Assembly: GCF_030646165.1 (NCBI RefSeq)
Contig: NZ_JAUTDO010000001.1
Span: 620,001 to 684,000, forward strand
Length of the DNA: 64,000 nt
Source of the DNA: Conexibacter sp. CPCC 206217
GTDB taxonomy: Bacteria > Actinomycetota > Thermoleophilia > Solirubrobacterales > Solirubrobacteraceae
Reading direction: 5' to 3'
Below are positions 41,911 to 53,066 of this stretch, in pieces. The translations under genes and the position numbers were made by a program. How positions within the stretch are numbered: position 1 is the first letter of the stretch; every line of letters begins with the position of its first letter. Below the pieces are notes generated by a model. That model was not told the origin of the DNA and did not search any database. It saw only the letters and a list, made by a program, of their open reading frames with translations.

Positions 41911-42231
41911 CTAGTCGCGACCCAGCAGGTGGATGTCGAGCAGGACCGAGCGCGTCGCGACGATCGGCAGCGCGTCGGCGCCCTTGCCACGACGGCGACC
42001 GCCGCCGAGCAGCCGCCCGCCGTTGCGCTTGCGCGCATGGTGGGAGATCGCCACGACCGTCGCCGCGCCGGCGACGAAGCTCGTCGCCGCGACCGCGGCC
42101 GCCGTCTTGACCGCCGGCAGCTGGGCGCGGGTGCGTTCGATCGCGCGCACCTCGTCGATGACGGGGACGGCGTCGACCGTCTCCTCTTCGTCGAGCGGCA
42201 GCGGGTGATGGTCTGCGGTGGTCTCGCTCAT
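41911..42231 (-). CDS. Hypothetical single-pass membrane protein (106 aa)
   Basis: Acidic N-terminus (about residues 1-25, LDEEETVDAVPVIDE), one TM (about 44-62, AAAVAATSFVAGAATVVAIS), and a basic segment HHARKRNGGRLLGGGRRRGK followed by a hydrophobic end (ALPIVATRSVLLDIHLLGRD). A TAGCGT box and GAAG lie upstream of ATG 42231. It ends 51 bp from the glycosylase start and begins 33 bp from the GNAT stop. It may be the last gene of the putative ceramide transcription unit; function unknown. Confidence 0.6.
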   Translation of the reverse strand: MSETTADHHPLPLDEEETVDAVPVIDEVRAIERTRAQLPAVKTAAAVAATSFVAGAATVVAISHHARKRNGGRLLGGGRRRGKGADALPIVATRSVLLDIHLLGRD

Positions 42232-42264: not shown

Positions 42265-43434
42265 TTATGTCGACACTGGGTCAGCGGGCGCGATCGACGG
42301 GATCGCGTCGGCGTCGAACAGCTTCTCGAAGAGGCGGTAGCGGCGCACGACTCTGCCGCCCATCCCTTCCATCGCGCGGTTCATCGACTTGTTCGTCTCG
42401 AGGATCCAGCCCATCTCGCCGTAGGTCTGCGGGGTGACCTCGGCGGAGTCGAAGTGCAGCTCGTAGAAGCGCGCGGCGACGCCGGTGTGCTGCCACTCGC
42501 GCTTGACGCCGAGCGCGAACACGCGCACGCGATCGATCTTTCTGCGGTGGAGCAGGAACTGCAGCCAGCCGAACGGCAGGATCCGCCCGTTCATGCGCTT
42601 GAAGACCTGGTTGTAGTCCGGCACCGACAGCGCGGCGCCGACGGTCTCCCCGTCCTTCTCGGCGACGAACGCCCAGTGCTCGTCGAGGATCGGCTTCAGC
42701 GTCTTGGCGTAGTGGCGGACCTCGTTCTCCGTCAGCGGCGAGAAGCCCCAGTTTCTCTCCCACGCCTCGTTGTAGACCTCGAGAAAGCGGTCGATCTCGG
42801 CGTTGATGTCCTTCTTGCGCATCGGCCGCACGGTGATCCCGTACTTCGACTCGACGCGCTCGGCGACTCTCCAGATCGTCGGGTGGACTCTGTCGCGGCC
42901 CGAGATCTCCAGGTGCCACATCAGCGTGTCCATCGCTCTGACGAGGCCCGCCGACTCGATGAGTCTCGGGTAGTACGGCTTGGTCCAGTTCGTCAGCACG
43001 ATCGGATCGAGCTTGAAGCCCTCGACGAGCACCCCGCACTCGTCGTTCATCGTGAAGTCGGCCGGGCCGACCATGCGGTCGCGACCGCGGCCGCGCAGCC
43101 ACTGCTCGGCGGCGTCGAGCAGGGCGGCGGCCGTGCGCGGATCGTCCTCGCATTCGAAGAAGCCGAAGAGGCCCCATCTGTTGTCCTGGAACTCGTTGAG
43201 GACGTGGTCGACCTGAGCGGTGATGCGCCCGACCGCTCTGCCGTCGCGCCAGGCGAGGAAGTACTGCGCCTCGCCGTGCTCGAACCACGGGTTCTTGCGC
43301 CGGTCCAAGAAGCTGCGCCGCTCGGAGATCAAGGGCGGCACCCAGTGCGGCTCGTTACGATAGAGCCGCCATGGCAGCTTGATGAAGGTTGTGAGGTCGC
43401 GCTTGGAAGCGACCGGCCGGACTTCGAGAGCCAT
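42265..43434 (-). CDS. GNAT-fold acyltransferase, candidate bacterial ceramide synthase
   Basis: 389 residues, about twice the length of a simple GNAT enzyme. The N-terminal part has KLPWRLYRNEPHWVPPLISE and the acceptor-like FFECEDDPRTAAALLDAAEQ block. The central and C-terminal parts hold GNAT-like strands (HWAFVAEKDGETVGAALSVP, RVRVFALGVKREWQHTGVAA). In Caulobacter, the ceramide synthase that N-acylates the SPT-derived base is a GNAT-superfamily protein found near spt. Divergence from an SPT-like gene by 13 bp is the main reason for this call. TAGATT 6 nt before ATG 43434 suggests a leaderless mRNA. Assignment to ceramide synthesis is inference. Confidence 0.6.
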   Translation of the reverse strand: MALEVRPVASKRDLTTFIKLPWRLYRNEPHWVPPLISERRSFLDRRKNPWFEHGEAQYFLAWRDGRAVGRITAQVDHVLNEFQDNRWGLFGFFECEDDPRTAAALLDAAEQWLRGRGRDRMVGPADFTMNDECGVLVEGFKLDPIVLTNWTKPYYPRLIESAGLVRAMDTLMWHLEISGRDRVHPTIWRVAERVESKYGITVRPMRKKDINAEIDRFLEVYNEAWERNWGFSPLTENEVRHYAKTLKPILDEHWAFVAEKDGETVGAALSVPDYNQVFKRMNGRILPFGWLQFLLHRRKIDRVRVFALGVKREWQHTGVAARFYELHFDSAEVTPQTYGEMGWILETNKSMNRAMEGMGGRVVRRYRLFEKLFDADAIPSIAPADPVST

Positions 43435-43440
43435 CCGGCC

Positions 43441-43446
43441 AATCTA
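43441..43446 (-). promoter_or_regulatory. -10 box of the leaderless GNAT gene
   Basis: TAGATT on the minus strand, 6 nt before the GNAT ATG and 1 nt from the ATG of the divergent SPT-like gene. The two start regions therefore overlap. Confidence 0.55.
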
Positions 43447-43447
43447 T

Positions 43448-44716
43448 ATGCCGACCACCACAGACGTCTTCGACAAGGCCCGCACCCACGAGCGCGTTCT
43501 CCAGCTGAGAGCGGCCCGTGACATCGATGCGGTCCCCTACTTCCGCCGGCTCGAATCGGCGACGGCCCCCGTCGTGGAGATGGAGGGGCAGCCGCGCATC
43601 ATGCTCGGCTCCAACAACTACCTCGGGTTGACGAGCGACCCGCGCGTGATCGAGGGCGCCCACGACGCGATCCGCCGCTACGGCACCGGCGTGACCGGCT
43701 CGCGCCTGCTCAACGGCACGCTCGACCTGCACCTGGAACTGGAGCAGGAGCTGGCCGAGTGGTTCGGCACCGAGGACGCGATCGTCTACACGACGGGGCA
43801 CCAGGCGAACCTCGGCGCGATCGGGACGATCCTCGGCCCGGGCGACACCGTCGTCGTCGACTCCGGCGACCACGCCTCGATCCTCGACGGCGTGATCCTC
43901 TCGCGCGCGAAGATGCGCGTCTTCCGCCACAACCGGCTCGACCTGCTGGAGAAGCGGCTGCAGCAGGCGGAGTCCGACGGCGGCGGGATCATGGTCGTCG
44001 TCGACGGCGTCTTCTCGATGGAGGGCGACGTCGCGCCGCTGCCGCAGATCGCGGACCTGGCGGAGCGCTACGGCGCGCGCCTGATGGTCGACGAGGCGCA
44101 CGGCCTCGGCGTGCTCGGCGCGCGCGGCGCGGGTGCGTCGGAGCTGCTCGGGGTCGAGGACCGCGTCGACCTGCGGATGGCGACGTTCTCGAAGTCGCTC
44201 GCCTCCTGCGGCGGCGTGATCGCGGGCCCGACCGACGTGATCGACTTCCTGCGGATCCAGTCGCGGCCGTTCCTGTTCACGGCATCGGCGGTGCCGGCGG
44301 CGGTCGGCTCGGCGCTGGCGGCGGTGCGCGTCTGCCGCTCGGACGAGGGCAGAGCGCTGTTCGCGCGCGTGCTCGACAACGCGGCCTACCTGAACGCCGG
44401 GCTGCGCTCGCTCGGCTTCCACACGGTCGAGCCGACGGCGCTGCCGGACGGCTCGGTCGTCGCGACGCCCGTCGTGCCGGTGCTGGTCGCCGACGACTGG
44501 AAGGCGGCGCTGATGTGGAAGGCGCTCTACGAGGAAGGCGTGTACGTCAACGTCGCGTTGCACCCGGCGGTGCCGCCGGGCGGGGCGCTGCTGCGCACGA
44601 GCGTGATGGCAACGCACGAGCGCTCGCAGCTGGATGAGGCGATCGCGAAGTTCGCCAGCGTCAAGCGCAGCTTCGAGGCGGAGCACGGGCCGCTGCCCGG
44701 CCCGCTCGCCGCGTGA
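43448..44716 (+). CDS. spt: Serine palmitoyltransferase-like alpha-oxoamine synthase
   Basis: 422 residues, PLP-dependent. Key residues: His142 in SGDHASI stacks on PLP, Asp215 in MVDEAHG, and the Schiff-base Lys249 in TFSKSLASCGG. The FSKSLAS form and the GSNNYLGLTSDP and TGVTGSRLLNGTLDLHLELE blocks are those of bacterial SPT (Bacteroides, Sphingomonas type). KBL and BioF instead have TLGKA/TFGKA. SPT condenses serine with acyl-CoA to 3-keto-sphinganine. KBL or BioF remain alternatives, but no threonine or biotin genes are near. No ribosome site is obvious before ATG 43448. Confidence 0.8.
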   Translation: MPTTTDVFDKARTHERVLQLRAARDIDAVPYFRRLESATAPVVEMEGQPRIMLGSNNYLGLTSDPRVIEGAHDAIRRYGTGVTGSRLLNGTLDLHLELEQELAEWFGTEDAIVYTTGHQANLGAIGTILGPGDTVVVDSGDHASILDGVILSRAKMRVFRHNRLDLLEKRLQQAESDGGGIMVVVDGVFSMEGDVAPLPQIADLAERYGARLMVDEAHGLGVLGARGAGASELLGVEDRVDLRMATFSKSLASCGGVIAGPTDVIDFLRIQSRPFLFTASAVPAAVGSALAAVRVCRSDEGRALFARVLDNAAYLNAGLRSLGFHTVEPTALPDGSVVATPVVPVLVADDWKAALMWKALYEEGVYVNVALHPAVPPGGALLRTSVMATHERSQLDEAIAKFASVKRSFEAEHGPLPGPLAA

Positions 44717-44788: not shown

Positions 44789-45185
44789 GGACCGATTGCG
44801 GATGAGGGAACTCTAAGACTTTGCTCCGATTCTCTCTCTGTCAAAGCTCTCATTTTTCGCTTGGTCCTGCGACCTCGTTCGCGACACTCTGATATGGGCG
44901 TGGCGCACCTTCGTTGCACTGCTTTGTGCGGCACAAAAAAAGGCCGCTCCTAGCGCACGTTCAGACAGTTCGGCATTGACCGCCGCGGGGCGAAGGGCAT
45001 AGCTTCTGCGGACGTTGTTGGGGCTGACTCGCACCGGGGCCACGGCGTCTCTTACGAGGGAGAGCGCTCACGTCAAGGAAGGTGCCCGAGACTCGTTCCG
45101 CGACGCGACAGTGCGTTCTGATCCCCCTTAGTTCAGTCGCCTGTCGGTGGTCTACTCGTATCGGAGGCAGGGAGAAAGAGTGCAG
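44789..45185. other. AT-richer intergenic region, no supported gene
   Basis: About 400 bp between the SPT-like gene and the mIHF-like gene. 44811-44960 is clearly less GC-rich than its surroundings and holds an A7 run between GCGGC and GCCGC (about 44930-44958). It probably contains the promoter and leader of the mIHF-like gene. No tRNA-like fold or coding frame was found. Confidence 0.5.
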
Positions 45186-45557
45186 ATGGACGGGTTGCCG
45201 ACGATGACCCCTGGGCCGCAGCACATGCGTGCCCTCCAGAGAGCAAACCGCGTGCGTCTCGCTCGCGCGGAGCTCAAACGCCGTATCGCGGACGGGGAGG
45301 TCTCCGCAGCGGAGGTTCTCCTCTCTTCCCCGTGGGAGGCTGACAGCATGGCGATCGGGGACGTCCTGATGAGCCAGCGCCGGTGGGGTAGCACCCGCTG
45401 TCGCAAGTTCCTCGCGATGTTCCGGATCCAGGAGACCAAGAGCGTCGGTTCGCTCACGGAGCGCCAGAGGCTGGCCCTCGCCGCGCAGTTGGATGCGCAC
45501 GCGAAGATAGAGCGCTCGTGCCGCCTCGAGGTGGCAGGAGCGTTGGTCAGCGCCTGA
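45186..45557 (+). CDS. mIHF-like nucleoid/DNA-binding protein
   Basis: 123 residues from ATG 45186 (GTG 45180 also possible; GGGAGAAA precedes both). The region AELKRRIADGEVSAAEVLLS, then IGDVLMSQRRWGSTRCRKFL and VGSLTERQRLALAAQL, follows the mycobacterial integration host factor pattern (helix, helix-two-turns-helix). The usual GxGxxRA segment is replaced by WGSTRCRKF. It is longer and more divergent than the housekeeping mIHF (about 105 residues), so it is likely a second paralogue. Binds DNA non-specifically in known relatives; the role here is unknown. Confidence 0.75.
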   Translation: MDGLPTMTPGPQHMRALQRANRVRLARAELKRRIADGEVSAAEVLLSSPWEADSMAIGDVLMSQRRWGSTRCRKFLAMFRIQETKSVGSLTERQRLALAAQLDAHAKIERSCRLEVAGALVSA

Positions 45558-49522: not shown

Positions 49523-50283
49523 TGTCTCACCAGCGCCTGCACCTGGGCCGCCAGCACACGTGGCGTCGAGGCCTCGTCCCCCAGCAGCGTCTCCGTCACT
49601 CTCCCGCCTCTCGCCGCCAGCACGACCGTCGGGCAGACCGCGATCCCGTAAAGGTTGGCGACGGCGCCGTCGCGATCCTGCGCGAGCGGGAAGGTCCAGC
49701 CGTGGGTTCTTGCGAGTTGGCGGAAGTCGTCGCGCTTGCCCTTGATCCCGACCGCGGCGAACGCGACCTGCGGGAAGTCCGCGGCAACCGACTGCATCAC
49801 GTCCAGCTCGCGGGTGCACTTGTCCGCGCCGGAGGTCAGGAAGGCGAGCACGAGCGGTCGGTCTCTCGCGAGCGTGCAGGCGTTGAGCGCGCGCGGGTCG
49901 GTCACGTCGCAGGCGGGCACGGCGCCCGCGTCACCCTGGTCGGGTCTCGTGGCGACGTTGGCGTCACCTTCGAGGTCGCTCGTCACCAGCGGGGCGGCGA
50001 AGGGCGGGAGCGTCTTGCCGACCACGGGACCGGTCGACCCCGGTCCCTCCGTGCGCAGCGTGTTGAGCGAGATGTAGGCGATGACGATCAGGCCGACGAT
50101 GCCGACGATCCAGCCATATCGCACGCGCCCAGGCGGCTGGGCCGATGGTGGATGCGCTCCCCCGGGCTCCGCTGGCGAGCGAACGGTCTCAGGATCCGAC
50201 GGCGTGCCAGACGTACGCGCGGGTGTTCGCGGCGCCGGCGGCCACGCCGCGCCTGGCTCGCCCGGCTCTGGCTCGCGCGTCAT
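49519..50283 (-). CDS. Membrane-anchored thioredoxin-fold (TlpA/redoxin-like) protein
   Basis: 254 residues. Pro-rich cytoplasmic N-terminus (1-55), one TM (about 57-73, IVGIVGLIVIAYISLNTL), then an exported thioredoxin-like domain (about 85-254). The usual CxxC is missing: the site reads SGADKCTRELDVM, with only the second cysteine. A second Cys precedes the cis-Pro (IAVCPTVVLAA), and two more lie in an insert (PACDVTDPRALNACTLAR). It may therefore form a non-standard disulfide or be a thiol peroxidase-like variant. It overlaps MMPL by ATGA and the B3/B4 gene by GTGA. Confidence 0.8.
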   Translation of the reverse strand: MTREPEPGEPGAAWPPAPRTPARTSGTPSDPETVRSPAEPGGAHPPSAQPPGRVRYGWIVGIVGLIVIAYISLNTLRTEGPGSTGPVVGKTLPPFAAPLVTSDLEGDANVATRPDQGDAGAVPACDVTDPRALNACTLARDRPLVLAFLTSGADKCTRELDVMQSVAADFPQVAFAAVGIKGKRDDFRQLARTHGWTFPLAQDRDGAVANLYGIAVCPTVVLAARGGRVTETLLGDEASTPRVLAAQVQALVRQ

Positions 50284-53066
50284 GCGAACGGCGCGTCAGA
50301 CCGCGCCGTCGAGCGGCGGCGGCGCCGGCCCGGCAGCGGCAGCCGCTGCGCGACGCGGGCGAAGACGCCGCGCTCGGCCAGCACCAGGACCGACGGCAGC
50401 ACGACCAGCACGCCGATCAGCGACGCCGCCAGGTCGACCACGGTCACGATCCCGAAGTCGCGCAGCATCCGGATGTCGGAGAAGGCGAGCACGCCGAAGC
50501 CAGCGATTGCGGTCACGCCCGAGGCAACGACCGCGCGACCGGTCGAGCGGTACGTGCGCGCGAGCGCGTCACCGAGGTCGCGGCCGTCCGCGCGCTCCTG
50601 GCGGAAGCGCTCGGACAGCAGCACGCTGAACTCCGTCGAGATCGCGATCACGAGCGCTCCGAGCGTCGCCGACAGCGGGTTCAGCGGCACGCGCGTCAGG
50701 AACAGCACGAGCGCCGACCAGCCGGTCGCGAGCGCGATCGGCAGCAGCGGCACGAGCGCGCGGCCCGCGCTGCGGAAGATCGCGAACAGGACAGCAGCAA
50801 CCGCCAGCAGGCCCAGCACGACGGTCAGCAGCCGGCGCGTCGCCGACGACAGGTCCGCGTTGGCCTGCGCGGTCACGACGGGGAGGCCGGCAAGCTGCGC
50901 CTCGACGCCCTTGGGCGGATTCAGCTCCGCGCGCAGCACGTCGACGACACGCTGCTGCTCGTCGAGCGGCATCAGTCGGATCCCGAACGCGAGCGTCGCG
51001 GCGCGGCGGTCGCTCGACAGCACCGCAGAGGCGAAGTACGGCGGGACCGCGTCCAGCAGCGCGTCGATCTGTCTCTGCGTGGAGGCAGCCGACCCGGAGA
51101 ACAGATCCGGCAGAGAGAACGCTGGGCACAGTTTCGCGTCCGTGCAGCCGCTTCTAGCGTCGTAGCCGAGGCGTCTGAGCACGCGGCCCTGGTAGTCGCT
51201 CATCCAGCTCACGACGGCCGGGCTCGCAACGTCGTCGCCCCGCACGACGATGTCGATCTCGCCCGATGATCTGGTCGCGTCCTGCAGCGTCGTCAGATCC
51301 GCGAGCGCGGGCATGTCGGCCGGCACGAGTTTCGTCACGTCGGAGACGACATCGGTCTGCGTCTCCACGCACCAGCCGACGACCGCAAGCGCCAGCGCGA
51401 CCGCGAGGATGCGGCCCGGGCGGCGCAGCGAGACGGCGATCAGGCCGGCGGAGGTCGGGCGACGGCGGACGAGGGCGCGGACCGGGCGGGGTCGCGCGAG
51501 CGTGTGGCCGACGCCGGCGAGCAGGTCACGGGCTCCGGCGAGCGAGGCGGAGAGGGCGCGGCCGAGTGCTGCGAATGCCCGAGCGGGAACGGAGAACAGG
51601 CGTGTGGTGGCCGCCGTGATGCGGCTGCCGCGGCGCGACGAGCGGTCGCCGATCCCGCCGTTTCGGGTGACGGGGCCTGGCGCAACATCCCGGCGCGCGC
51701 TCAGCGCCAGCGCCGCCGACCCCGCCGTGATCGTCACGAGGAACGCGATCGCGATGCCGACGACGAGCAGCAGGCCGAAGCCGCGCACCATCGGCACGGG
51801 CGACAGCAGCAGCACGAGGAAGCCGGTCGCCGTCGCAAGTCCGGCGGTGGCGATCGTCGGCGCGCCGGCGCGCGCCGCCAACCCGACAGCATCCGCCCCG
51901 CGGACACCCGCCTCCCGCTGCTCCTCCACGCGCGACTGGAACTGGATCGCGTAGTCGACCGCAAGACCGATCAGTACGGGCAGCACCGCGATCGACGCCA
52001 TCGTCAGCTCGGCGCCGGCGAGACGCATCAGGCCGAACGTGAGGCCGGCGGCTGAGAGGGCAAGCGCGAGCGGCAGCAGACGCAGGCGCGCGCGGAAGAC
52101 GAGCAGCAGCACGAGCGCCATCGCCGCGACGGCGGCGCCGAGCAGCAGCGTCAGCTCGCCGGTGACGGAGTCGGCGAGGTCGTCGACGACGACCGGGACG
52201 CCCGAGACGGTGTACGTCCCGCCGCGTCTGAGTCTGAACATCGGCATCGCAACCGCGTCGCGCACGAGGCTGATCGCCTGCGCCCGGTCAGCCTGCGAGA
52301 GGTCGTCGCGCAGCCGCACCTGGATCAGCGCGGAGTCTCTGCTCGGGAACAGATAGGTGAAACGCGACTTCGGCACATCTGCGCCACGGGCCGGATCGAA
52401 GACGATCTGCGAGACGAAGTCTCTGTTGTCGATCTGCGGCATCCCTCTCAGGCCGCTGTCGAGCGCGAGTCTGGCGACCGCCGCGAGCACCTGCTGCGAA
52501 GCTTTGTTAGCCGCCGCGTCGCCAGCACGCTGCTGCTCGGCCGCGCTGCCCCCGGCTCTCGCGACCCGCTGCTCGGCCGCTCTGCGCGCCGTCGCCGCCT
52601 CCGCTCTCGCGCGCGTCAGCTCTGCGAAGAGGGTGTCCTGCAACGCGCGCGCGGCCTCGTTCAGGAAGGTGCCTGGTCCATACACGACGCGCGCGGGCTT
52701 GAGGGCGGCGAGCTTCGCGCACGGACTGTCGTCGCCGCCGTACGGTCTCGCGCCGGCCGGGACGTTGCCGCCGAGGCAGCCTTCGAGCTGAACCGCGCGA
52801 CCGAGGTCGTCGGTCAGGACGAAGTCTGCAACGCGCTCTCGCACGAGCACGAGGATCGCGTCGTCGCCGAAGTCGCGATGGAAATCGGCCGTCGCCTTGC
52901 CGGCATCGGACGAGCGGCCGGCGAGCGTGTCGGTGCTCGTGCTCGCCTGCAGCCCCAGCGCCAACACGCCGCCCCCGACGGCGAGCGCAAACACCGCGAG
53001 CAGCACAACGAGCGGGCGGCCCGCAGCGGCCCGGGCGACGCGCTCGAGACCCTCTCGCATCCGCAC
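50280..53066 (-). CDS. MMPL/RND-family lipid transporter
   Basis: 928 residues, start GTG 53066 or ATG 53060. Two similar halves, each with a leading TM, a large exported loop and about five to six TM segments. Typical segments are MASIAVLPVLIGLAVDYAIQ in the first half and LGALVIAISTEFSVLLSERF in the second, plus GAPTIATAGLATATGFLVLL. MMPL and HpnN-type members export lipids or hydrophobic compounds using the proton gradient. Placed 67 bp after the last Mce gene and coupled to the redoxin gene, it probably handles the same envelope lipids as the Mce system; direction and substrate unknown. Confidence 0.88.
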   Translation of the reverse strand: MRMREGLERVARAAAGRPLVVLLAVFALAVGGGVLALGLQASTSTDTLAGRSSDAGKATADFHRDFGDDAILVLVRERVADFVLTDDLGRAVQLEGCLGGNVPAGARPYGGDDSPCAKLAALKPARVVYGPGTFLNEAARALQDTLFAELTRARAEAATARRAAEQRVARAGGSAAEQQRAGDAAANKASQQVLAAVARLALDSGLRGMPQIDNRDFVSQIVFDPARGADVPKSRFTYLFPSRDSALIQVRLRDDLSQADRAQAISLVRDAVAMPMFRLRRGGTYTVSGVPVVVDDLADSVTGELTLLLGAAVAAMALVLLLVFRARLRLLPLALALSAAGLTFGLMRLAGAELTMASIAVLPVLIGLAVDYAIQFQSRVEEQREAGVRGADAVGLAARAGAPTIATAGLATATGFLVLLLSPVPMVRGFGLLLVVGIAIAFLVTITAGSAALALSARRDVAPGPVTRNGGIGDRSSRRGSRITAATTRLFSVPARAFAALGRALSASLAGARDLLAGVGHTLARPRPVRALVRRRPTSAGLIAVSLRRPGRILAVALALAVVGWCVETQTDVVSDVTKLVPADMPALADLTTLQDATRSSGEIDIVVRGDDVASPAVVSWMSDYQGRVLRRLGYDARSGCTDAKLCPAFSLPDLFSGSAASTQRQIDALLDAVPPYFASAVLSSDRRAATLAFGIRLMPLDEQQRVVDVLRAELNPPKGVEAQLAGLPVVTAQANADLSSATRRLLTVVLGLLAVAAVLFAIFRSAGRALVPLLPIALATGWSALVLFLTRVPLNPLSATLGALVIAISTEFSVLLSERFRQERADGRDLGDALARTYRSTGRAVVASGVTAIAGFGVLAFSDIRMLRDFGIVTVVDLAASLIGVLVVLPSVLVLAERGVFARVAQRLPLPGRRRRRSTARSDAPFA

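Follow-up and report, generated by a model that had tools for sequence, protein, structure and literature searches.

A candidate serine palmitoyltransferase and ceramide synthase gene pair linked across the actinobacterial order Solirubrobacterales

Introduction

Two adjacent, divergently oriented genes in a 64-kb stretch of DNA from Conexibacter sp. CPCC 206217 (hereafter ‘the window’; C1:620001-684000 of a 5.94-Mb, 28-contig genome that is 97.4% complete with 6.6% contamination) probably code for the two enzymes that start bacterial ceramide synthesis, and together these would yield N-acyl-3-ketosphinganine. Conexibacter is placed in Actinomycetota, Thermoleophilia, Solirubrobacterales in the NCBI taxonomy. 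On comparisons of the encoded proteins, we consider it likely that the genes specify a serine palmitoyltransferase (SPT) and a bacterial ceramide synthase (bCerS). Support was obtained from homology, clade membership, active-site residues, predicted fold, conserved linkage, and co-occurrence. The enzymes are of a known kind; the novelty lies in the setting, an actinobacterial order across which bCerS is linked to an SPT lineage, and the reductase CerR was not identified.

Most bacteria known to make sphingolipids are Gram-negative, and the sphingolipids of Caulobacter go to the outer membrane. If our interpretation is true, an order-wide SPT-bCerS pair puts sphingolipids in Gram-positive cells that offer no outer-membrane destination, and may reveal a ceramide route without CerR. 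The cultured genera Conexibacter and Solirubrobacter make these pathway and membrane questions testable, and surveys that require all three genes could miss such bacteria.

Sphingolipid potential in Actinobacteria is already published in general terms. A first-pass annotation of the window had referred to such a prediction, and the available text of PMC12134224, citing Stankeviciute 2022, does state that several Gram-positive Actinobacteria have this potential as judged by three-gene phylogenetics. A Black Sea survey applies the same clade logic in the part of PMC11334938 available, and words beginning Actinobact- or Actinomyc- are absent from its main text. Judged by titles and the starts of abstracts, no report of sphingolipid synthesis by Conexibacter, Solirubrobacterales, or Thermoleophilia was found in the literature.

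Results

The candidate SPT gene occupies 43448..44716 on the plus strand (422 amino acids from an ATG codon), and is assigned by SPT model and Protein Data Bank (PDB) matches, its position in the SPT clade, and its active-site residues. The gene for a tandem-GNAT acyltransferase, a putative member of the bCerS/YghO family, occupies 42265..43434 on the minus strand (ATG start, 389 amino acids), and is assigned by YghO homology, gene neighbourhoods, and an AlphaFold model. The two divergent start codons are separated by 13 bp (43435..43447), as read from the sequence and an alignment of 14 upstream regions. The longest SPT-like open reading frame (ORF) spans 43379-44716 on the plus strand (445 amino acids) and begins at a TTG codon that overlaps the GNAT gene. 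We consider the ATG at 43448 the likelier start (MPTTTDVFDKARTHERV), and the gene called in locus L045 begins MPTTIDVFSKARTHERV. The 13-bp divergence from a 389-residue GNAT that the first-pass annotation reported therefore holds with this ATG, and the overlapping start regions that it also described apply to the longer TTG ORF and not to the likelier one. One copy of each gene is present in the genome, on a large contig with neighbours typical of the order.

A TATAG, TGTAG, or TATAC stretch, read by eye, precedes the GNAT start by 14-18 bases in 13 of the 14 aligned upstream regions (window; L043-L054, L060, L092). This stretch resembles the -10 box of a leaderless transcript, and the window copy (43440-43460) runs over the start codon of the SPT gene.

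Searches with the pyridoxal phosphate (PLP)-dependent enzyme rank SPTs first. Its top NCBIfam models are two SPT models (408 and 395 bits), followed by glycine C-acetyltransferase (KBL; 359 bits) and bioF (340 bits). The best PDB match is the Sphingobacterium SPT 8guh (324 bits), followed by Sphingomonas-type SPTs (283 bits), and the best KBL reaches 254 bits. Identity to reference SPTs is 39-42%, with 42% for the Sphingobacterium enzyme. A cysteate acyltransferase (SulA) identity was deemed unlikely on scores alone (195 bits for 28eh versus 324 bits for SPT).

The high scores of the KBL and BioF models would also suit an enzyme of amino-acid or biotin metabolism that has a GNAT as a chance neighbour, and no separate KBL was seen in the genome: just one further strong alpha-oxoamine synthase was found, near C1:733834-735033, and it is BioF-like (411.6 bits versus a bioF cut-off of 426.45). 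Against this explanation stand clade membership, the motifs, and the linkage to the GNAT gene across the order, and we regard it as very improbable. In a 31-row maximum-likelihood tree, a 100/100 branch parts the SPT group from three KBL, six BioF, and three ALAS proteins plus the Aquificota protein of locus L096. The SPT side comprises the window enzyme, nine Solirubrobacterales proteins (9 of 49 usable), six reference SPTs, one Aquificota protein, and one Eisenbacteria protein; L204, from the same genome as L108, was left out of both SPT trees and kept in the motif list. The split from KBL, BioF, and ALAS holds in a 45-row tree with 14 rows added (99/98 and 100/99 branches), in which the sister group of the proteobacterial SPTs consists of the Solirubrobacterales SPT group and the class relative G061. 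By these alignments, the window enzyme is assigned to a separate SPT lineage, with the Solirubrobacterales enzymes forming their own supported group.

The motifs agree with the trees. The protein carries TFSKSLASCGG and TGSRLLNGTLDLHLELE, as well as GSRLLNGT. GTFSKS is described as characteristic of SPTs in the available portion of PMC10196870. The window has ATFSKS, and among the 49 SPT ORFs of the related loci L043-L095, 39 have GTFSKS, six have ATFSKS, and four have no TFSKS-type match. TFSKS is thus present in 45/49 and GSR[LF]LNGT in 49/49 of these ORFs. Both motifs occur in all seven reference SPT rows (six genomes or chains, because L204 repeats the genome of L108) and in none of 12 KBL, BioF, and ALAS rows. 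An identity as KBL, BioF, or ALAS was rejected by the trees and motifs. The first-pass annotation had called the enzyme SPT-like rather than a KBL or BioF form, and this stands: the motifs that it quoted are present, and the protein clusters with SPTs in both trees.

When 22 positions were compared with Sphingobacterium SPT, 17 were identical, and positions 53, 79, 240, 271, and 370 differed. The residues expected of the family are TFSKS with the PLP lysine, the stacking His, the Asp on the pyridine nitrogen, and the serine contacts; all are present, and G240 of the motif is A. Of the PLP and substrate contacts named in the accessible text of PMC10196870, 12/14 are identical in the window enzyme. 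The two changed contacts, Ala79 to Thr and Met271 to Leu, lie at positions that also vary in E. coli and sphingomonad SPTs.

These comparisons also bear on substrate choice. An enzyme using alanine or glycine would lead the pair to make 1-deoxy-type N-acyl aminoketones, not serine-based ceramides. L-Ala and Gly are also accepted by SPT, at far lower efficiency (PMC10196870, as far as available), position 240 is A instead of G in the window and in L043, L045, and L047, and six of the 49 locus ORFs have ATFSKS. We nevertheless judge this alternative unlikely, given that the serine contacts of Sphingobacterium SPT (N52, G80, S81, H138, S243) are conserved and that most locus ORFs keep GTFSKS.

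For the 389-residue protein, two Pfam GNAT models score slightly above their cut-offs (25.2 and 23.8 bits), FemAB_like falls under its own cut-off, and no related solved structure was found by sequence search. Similarity to E. coli BL21 YghO extends over the full length of the protein (34% identity across 378 columns, 223 bits, E 7e-74). The protein is 36-39% identical to Sphingomonadales homologues, 38% to the Caulobacteraceae homologue L112, and 39% to a homologue in L111, an Eisenbacteria metagenome-assembled genome (MAG). Its closest named relatives are those of Conexibacter sp. CPCC 205762 (91%) and C. arvalis (86%). In an excerpt of PMC9386255, yghO is given as the equivalent of Caulobacter CC_1154, with the activity of YghO itself predicted, and CC_1154 is needed for dihydroceramide in Caulobacter according to the available text of PMC11324152.

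Gene neighbourhoods of the homologues are consistent with this family assignment. In BL21, yghO has as neighbours genes for a fatty acyl-AMP ligase, an epimerase/dehydratase-family protein, and an acyl carrier protein (ACP), as well as spt. Homologues of lptF and lptG stand beside the GNAT gene, which follows them, in 17/19 proteobacterial loci (L101-L122 minus L102, L106, and L111). For example, a single 9-kb stretch of L119 holds cerR, acp, spt, a diacylglycerol kinase-like gene, lptF, lptG, and the GNAT gene, a layout much like the Caulobacter arrangement given in the accessible part of PMC11324152.

The GNAT alignment (A2) comprised the window protein and proteins from 36 of 80 loci, with L058 left out. 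The AlphaFold model (37 sequences) has a predicted local distance difference test (pLDDT) score of 91.2 and a predicted template modelling (pTM) score of 0.89. Foldseek ranks tandem GNATs first for this model (template modelling score TMq up to 0.61), with N-myristoyltransferase at ranks 43 and 45. The sequence and model comparisons thus support, for the 389-residue protein, a predicted identity as a tandem GNAT of the bCerS/YghO family; comparisons were with YghO and L112, and with CC_1154 by way of its published counterpart. The first-pass annotation had related the GNAT to the ceramide synthase of Caulobacter, and the full-length similarity to YghO and the gene neighbourhood in sphingolipid producers bear this out.

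Two related arrangements were observed. In an Aquificota MAG (L096:5557-9146), genes for an AMP-binding enzyme, an oxoamine synthase with GTLGKA, and a GNAT stand in a row, possibly for a different N-acyl aminoketone. In L027 (G190:C244:734-4482), two tandem GNAT copies lie beside one SPT gene, perhaps encoding acyltransferases of different chain length.

The distribution of the pair was assessed in a class sample of 199 genomes, using cut-offs of E<=1e-3 for the GNAT and E<=1e-85 for the SPT-like protein. The latter was set after inspection of scores: five class genomes gave 328-355 bits, and their other matches were <=262 bits. The class searches left 117, 126, and 121 non-matching genomes unlisted; all listed relatives of the same genus, family, or order match, and the listed non-matches are designated ‘same class’. 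The GNAT occurs in 62/199 and the SPT-like gene in 58/199 genomes, and all 58 also have the GNAT, so that at these cut-offs no genome among the 199 carries the SPT without it. Outside the order, the GNAT occurs in 9/146 genomes and the SPT-like gene in 5/146; all five are among the nine, and their SPTs fall in the SPT clade.

Among the genomes listed, both genes are present in 53/53 of the same genus, family, or order, and are divergent neighbours in 43 of these, with gaps between matched stretches of -56 to 214 bp. This pattern argues that the pair is not a chance arrangement. In the ten other genomes of the order, the genes are on different contigs (G163, G182, G194), divergent at 2.8 and 3.5 kb (G188 and G059), or far apart. 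Because the pair was found throughout the sampled order, this part of the case is stronger than the first-pass annotation had stated.

Related loci give a similar picture. The 53 genome_contigs loci L043-L095 (51-91% identity) are titled mostly as Solirubrobacterales or other Actinomycetota, with three titled only ‘bacterium’, and 49/53 carry both genes. Of the remaining four, three have the GNAT gene at the edge of a contig, and in L059 the 2.7 kb upstream gives no SPT match. Three loci (L060, L067, L071) are titled Bifidobacterium breve yet carry Solirubrobacterales-type genes (62-64% identity); these titles look wrong.

We also considered, as the product of the pair, an N-acylated long-chain aminoketone other than a membrane sphingolipid, such as a secondary metabolite or signal. 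The genes cerR, acpR, and aasR are not found beside the pair, and none of the window neighbours scanned against Pfam could be recognised as a ceramide head-group gene. Against this, the pair is present in all 53 listed genomes of the order and its neighbourhood is stable, as would be expected of a core function more than of a patchily distributed secondary metabolite, and we hold this alternative to be improbable.

As the first-pass annotation had noted, CerR was not seen in the window, and no CerR homologue lies beside the pair in the 53 related loci. Profile A1, built from three rows, gives 270-374 bits with six sphingomonad CerRs outside those rows, 187 bits with the Eisenbacteria protein, 145 bits with Aquificota, and 122-123 bits with Conexibacter relatives. 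One A1 row, L100 (Spirochaetales), was afterwards placed outside the CerR clade and may attract matches such as the best one in 61 genomes of the order, a short-chain dehydrogenase/reductase of G139 (194.5 bits) that is itself outside the clade. In a 42-row reductase tree, several rows of which are long-branched, the CerR clade (95/90) consists of E. coli, seven sphingomonads, Eisenbacteria, and one Aquificota protein. We label E. coli, the seven sphingomonads, and the Eisenbacteria neighbour the ‘trueCerR’ set, a term coined in this analysis. The L111 and L108 reductases were taken from six-frame ORFs.

The 22 reductases placed in this tree comprise six from the Conexibacter genome (L170, L183, L124, L127, L128, L129), six from other Conexibacter and SZAS-16, and the ten best places of the order (L187-L196). 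A CerR-like epimerase elsewhere in the genome, which the first-pass annotation had raised, was not found: the genome yields 33 matches to A1, the best at 94 bits, and none of the six of these that were placed falls in the CerR clade. With a CerR-only profile (E. coli and L119), the best place of the order reaches 121 bits versus 103 and 106 bits for two Aquificota rows, and therefore a diverged CerR in some members is possible. Replacement of CerR is also plausible because Bacteroides has a separate 3-ketosphinganine reductase route (PMC10191378, available portion), for which a reference title in the accessible text of PMC12134224 names BT_0972. On these sequence scores a CerR orthologue is not identified, and a diverged or unrelated reductase is possible in part of the order.

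Other genes of the region are also conserved. Directly downstream of the GNAT gene, a 106-amino-acid protein (41911..42231, minus strand) has homologues in 32/49 of the related loci with >500 bp past the GNAT and no Pfam, NCBIfam, or PHROGs match. It has a single hydrophobic stretch (VAATSFVAGAATVVAI) and conserved ends (EETVD, TRSVLLDIHLLG). An AlkA-like glycosylase occurs on the GNAT side in 29/40 loci, with Pfam AlkA_N under its cut-off in the window. After the SPT gene, a 136-amino-acid protein (45147-45557) is kept in 42/42 loci with room and has no Pfam match; we take it to resemble actinobacterial integration host factor. A redoxin is found on the SPT side in 30/31 loci with room. Further along, an MMPL/RND-family transporter (50283..53066, minus strand; Pfam MMPL E 3.4e-51, with a sterol-sensing-domain match) has homologues on the SPT side in 27/29 loci reaching >6 kb past the SPT gene. 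This transporter may export sphingolipids made by the pair; such a role is conjecture, and the whole region is conserved anyway.

Discussion

In the proposed pathway, the PLP enzyme is predicted to condense L-serine with a long-chain acyl thioester to give 3-ketosphinganine, which the tandem GNAT would then N-acylate with a second acyl chain to give N-acyl-3-ketosphinganine (oxidised dihydroceramide). We infer the substrates, activities, and order of steps from the enzyme families. The order agrees with the one proposed for Caulobacter. Because bCerS is placed before CerR there (PMC11087976, in the part available), a pair that lacks CerR would end in a keto-ceramide. Our best reading is that the pathway ends at the N-acyl keto-base as far as identified enzymes go, with the reducing enzyme absent, diverged, or unrelated. 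The reading of the first-pass annotation is supported as largely right, with an end product that is less certain than it implied because the reductase was not identified.

Several observations weigh against this interpretation. The PLP enzyme misses the curated NCBIfam cut-offs for all 25 models listed, including the SPT models (408/640, 395/500, and 320/670 bits); SPT-clade proteins of Eisenbacteria (L111) and Aquificota (L099) likewise miss the equivalog cut-offs. Four of the 62 GNAT-bearing genomes (G080, G086, G132, G167) have no SPT-like match at E<=1e-85; G086 and G167 are ~80% complete, and the GNAT match of G132 is a 119-residue fragment. The GNAT of L096 adjoins an oxoamine synthase that has GTLGKA and lies outside the SPT clade, so that SPT is not the only partner of this GNAT family. 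None of the 22 placed reductases (own genome, Conexibacter kin, order) falls in the CerR clade. AcpR, AasR, CerR, LptF, and LptG have no homologue at E<=1e-5 among six-frame ORFs of the window and L043-L095, with AcpR and AasR sought at these loci only; the AcpR search does match L108, L119, and L104. Finally, polar-lipid thin-layer chromatography does not decide the presence of sphingolipids.

A broader and more tentative proposal, which we see as possible and lean somewhat against, is that sphingolipids made without CerR are a core part of the membrane across the whole order Solirubrobacterales, with 3-keto-ceramides as the final lipids or with an unrelated reductase in the place of CerR.

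Comparison with known systems helps define what the window pair shares with them. In the rhodobacterial AcpR/AasR-dependent SPT system, acpR and aasR stand beside spt, whereas neither does so at the window or at L043-L095. Spt and bCerS homologues are common to the Caulobacter Spt-bCerS-CerR pathway (CC_1162, CC_1154, CC_1164) and its BL21 equivalent (spt, yghO, and an epimerase gene). In contrast, the window has only two genes, divergent and adjacent, with CerR not identified and with cerR, acpR, aasR, and lptF/G absent from it and from L043-L095. The Eisenbacteria MAG carries an spt-GNAT-cerR row on one strand, in which a CerR-clade reductase (30% identical to the E. coli CerR candidate) adjoins the GNAT, whereas the window pair is divergent. 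The Sphingobacterium multivorum SPT (8guh, 3a2b) is the best PDB match of the window enzyme and has similar active-site residues; at 42% identity, however, the window enzyme belongs to a Solirubrobacterales lineage of its own, one that lies nearer to the proteobacterial SPTs (98/92 in the 45-row tree).

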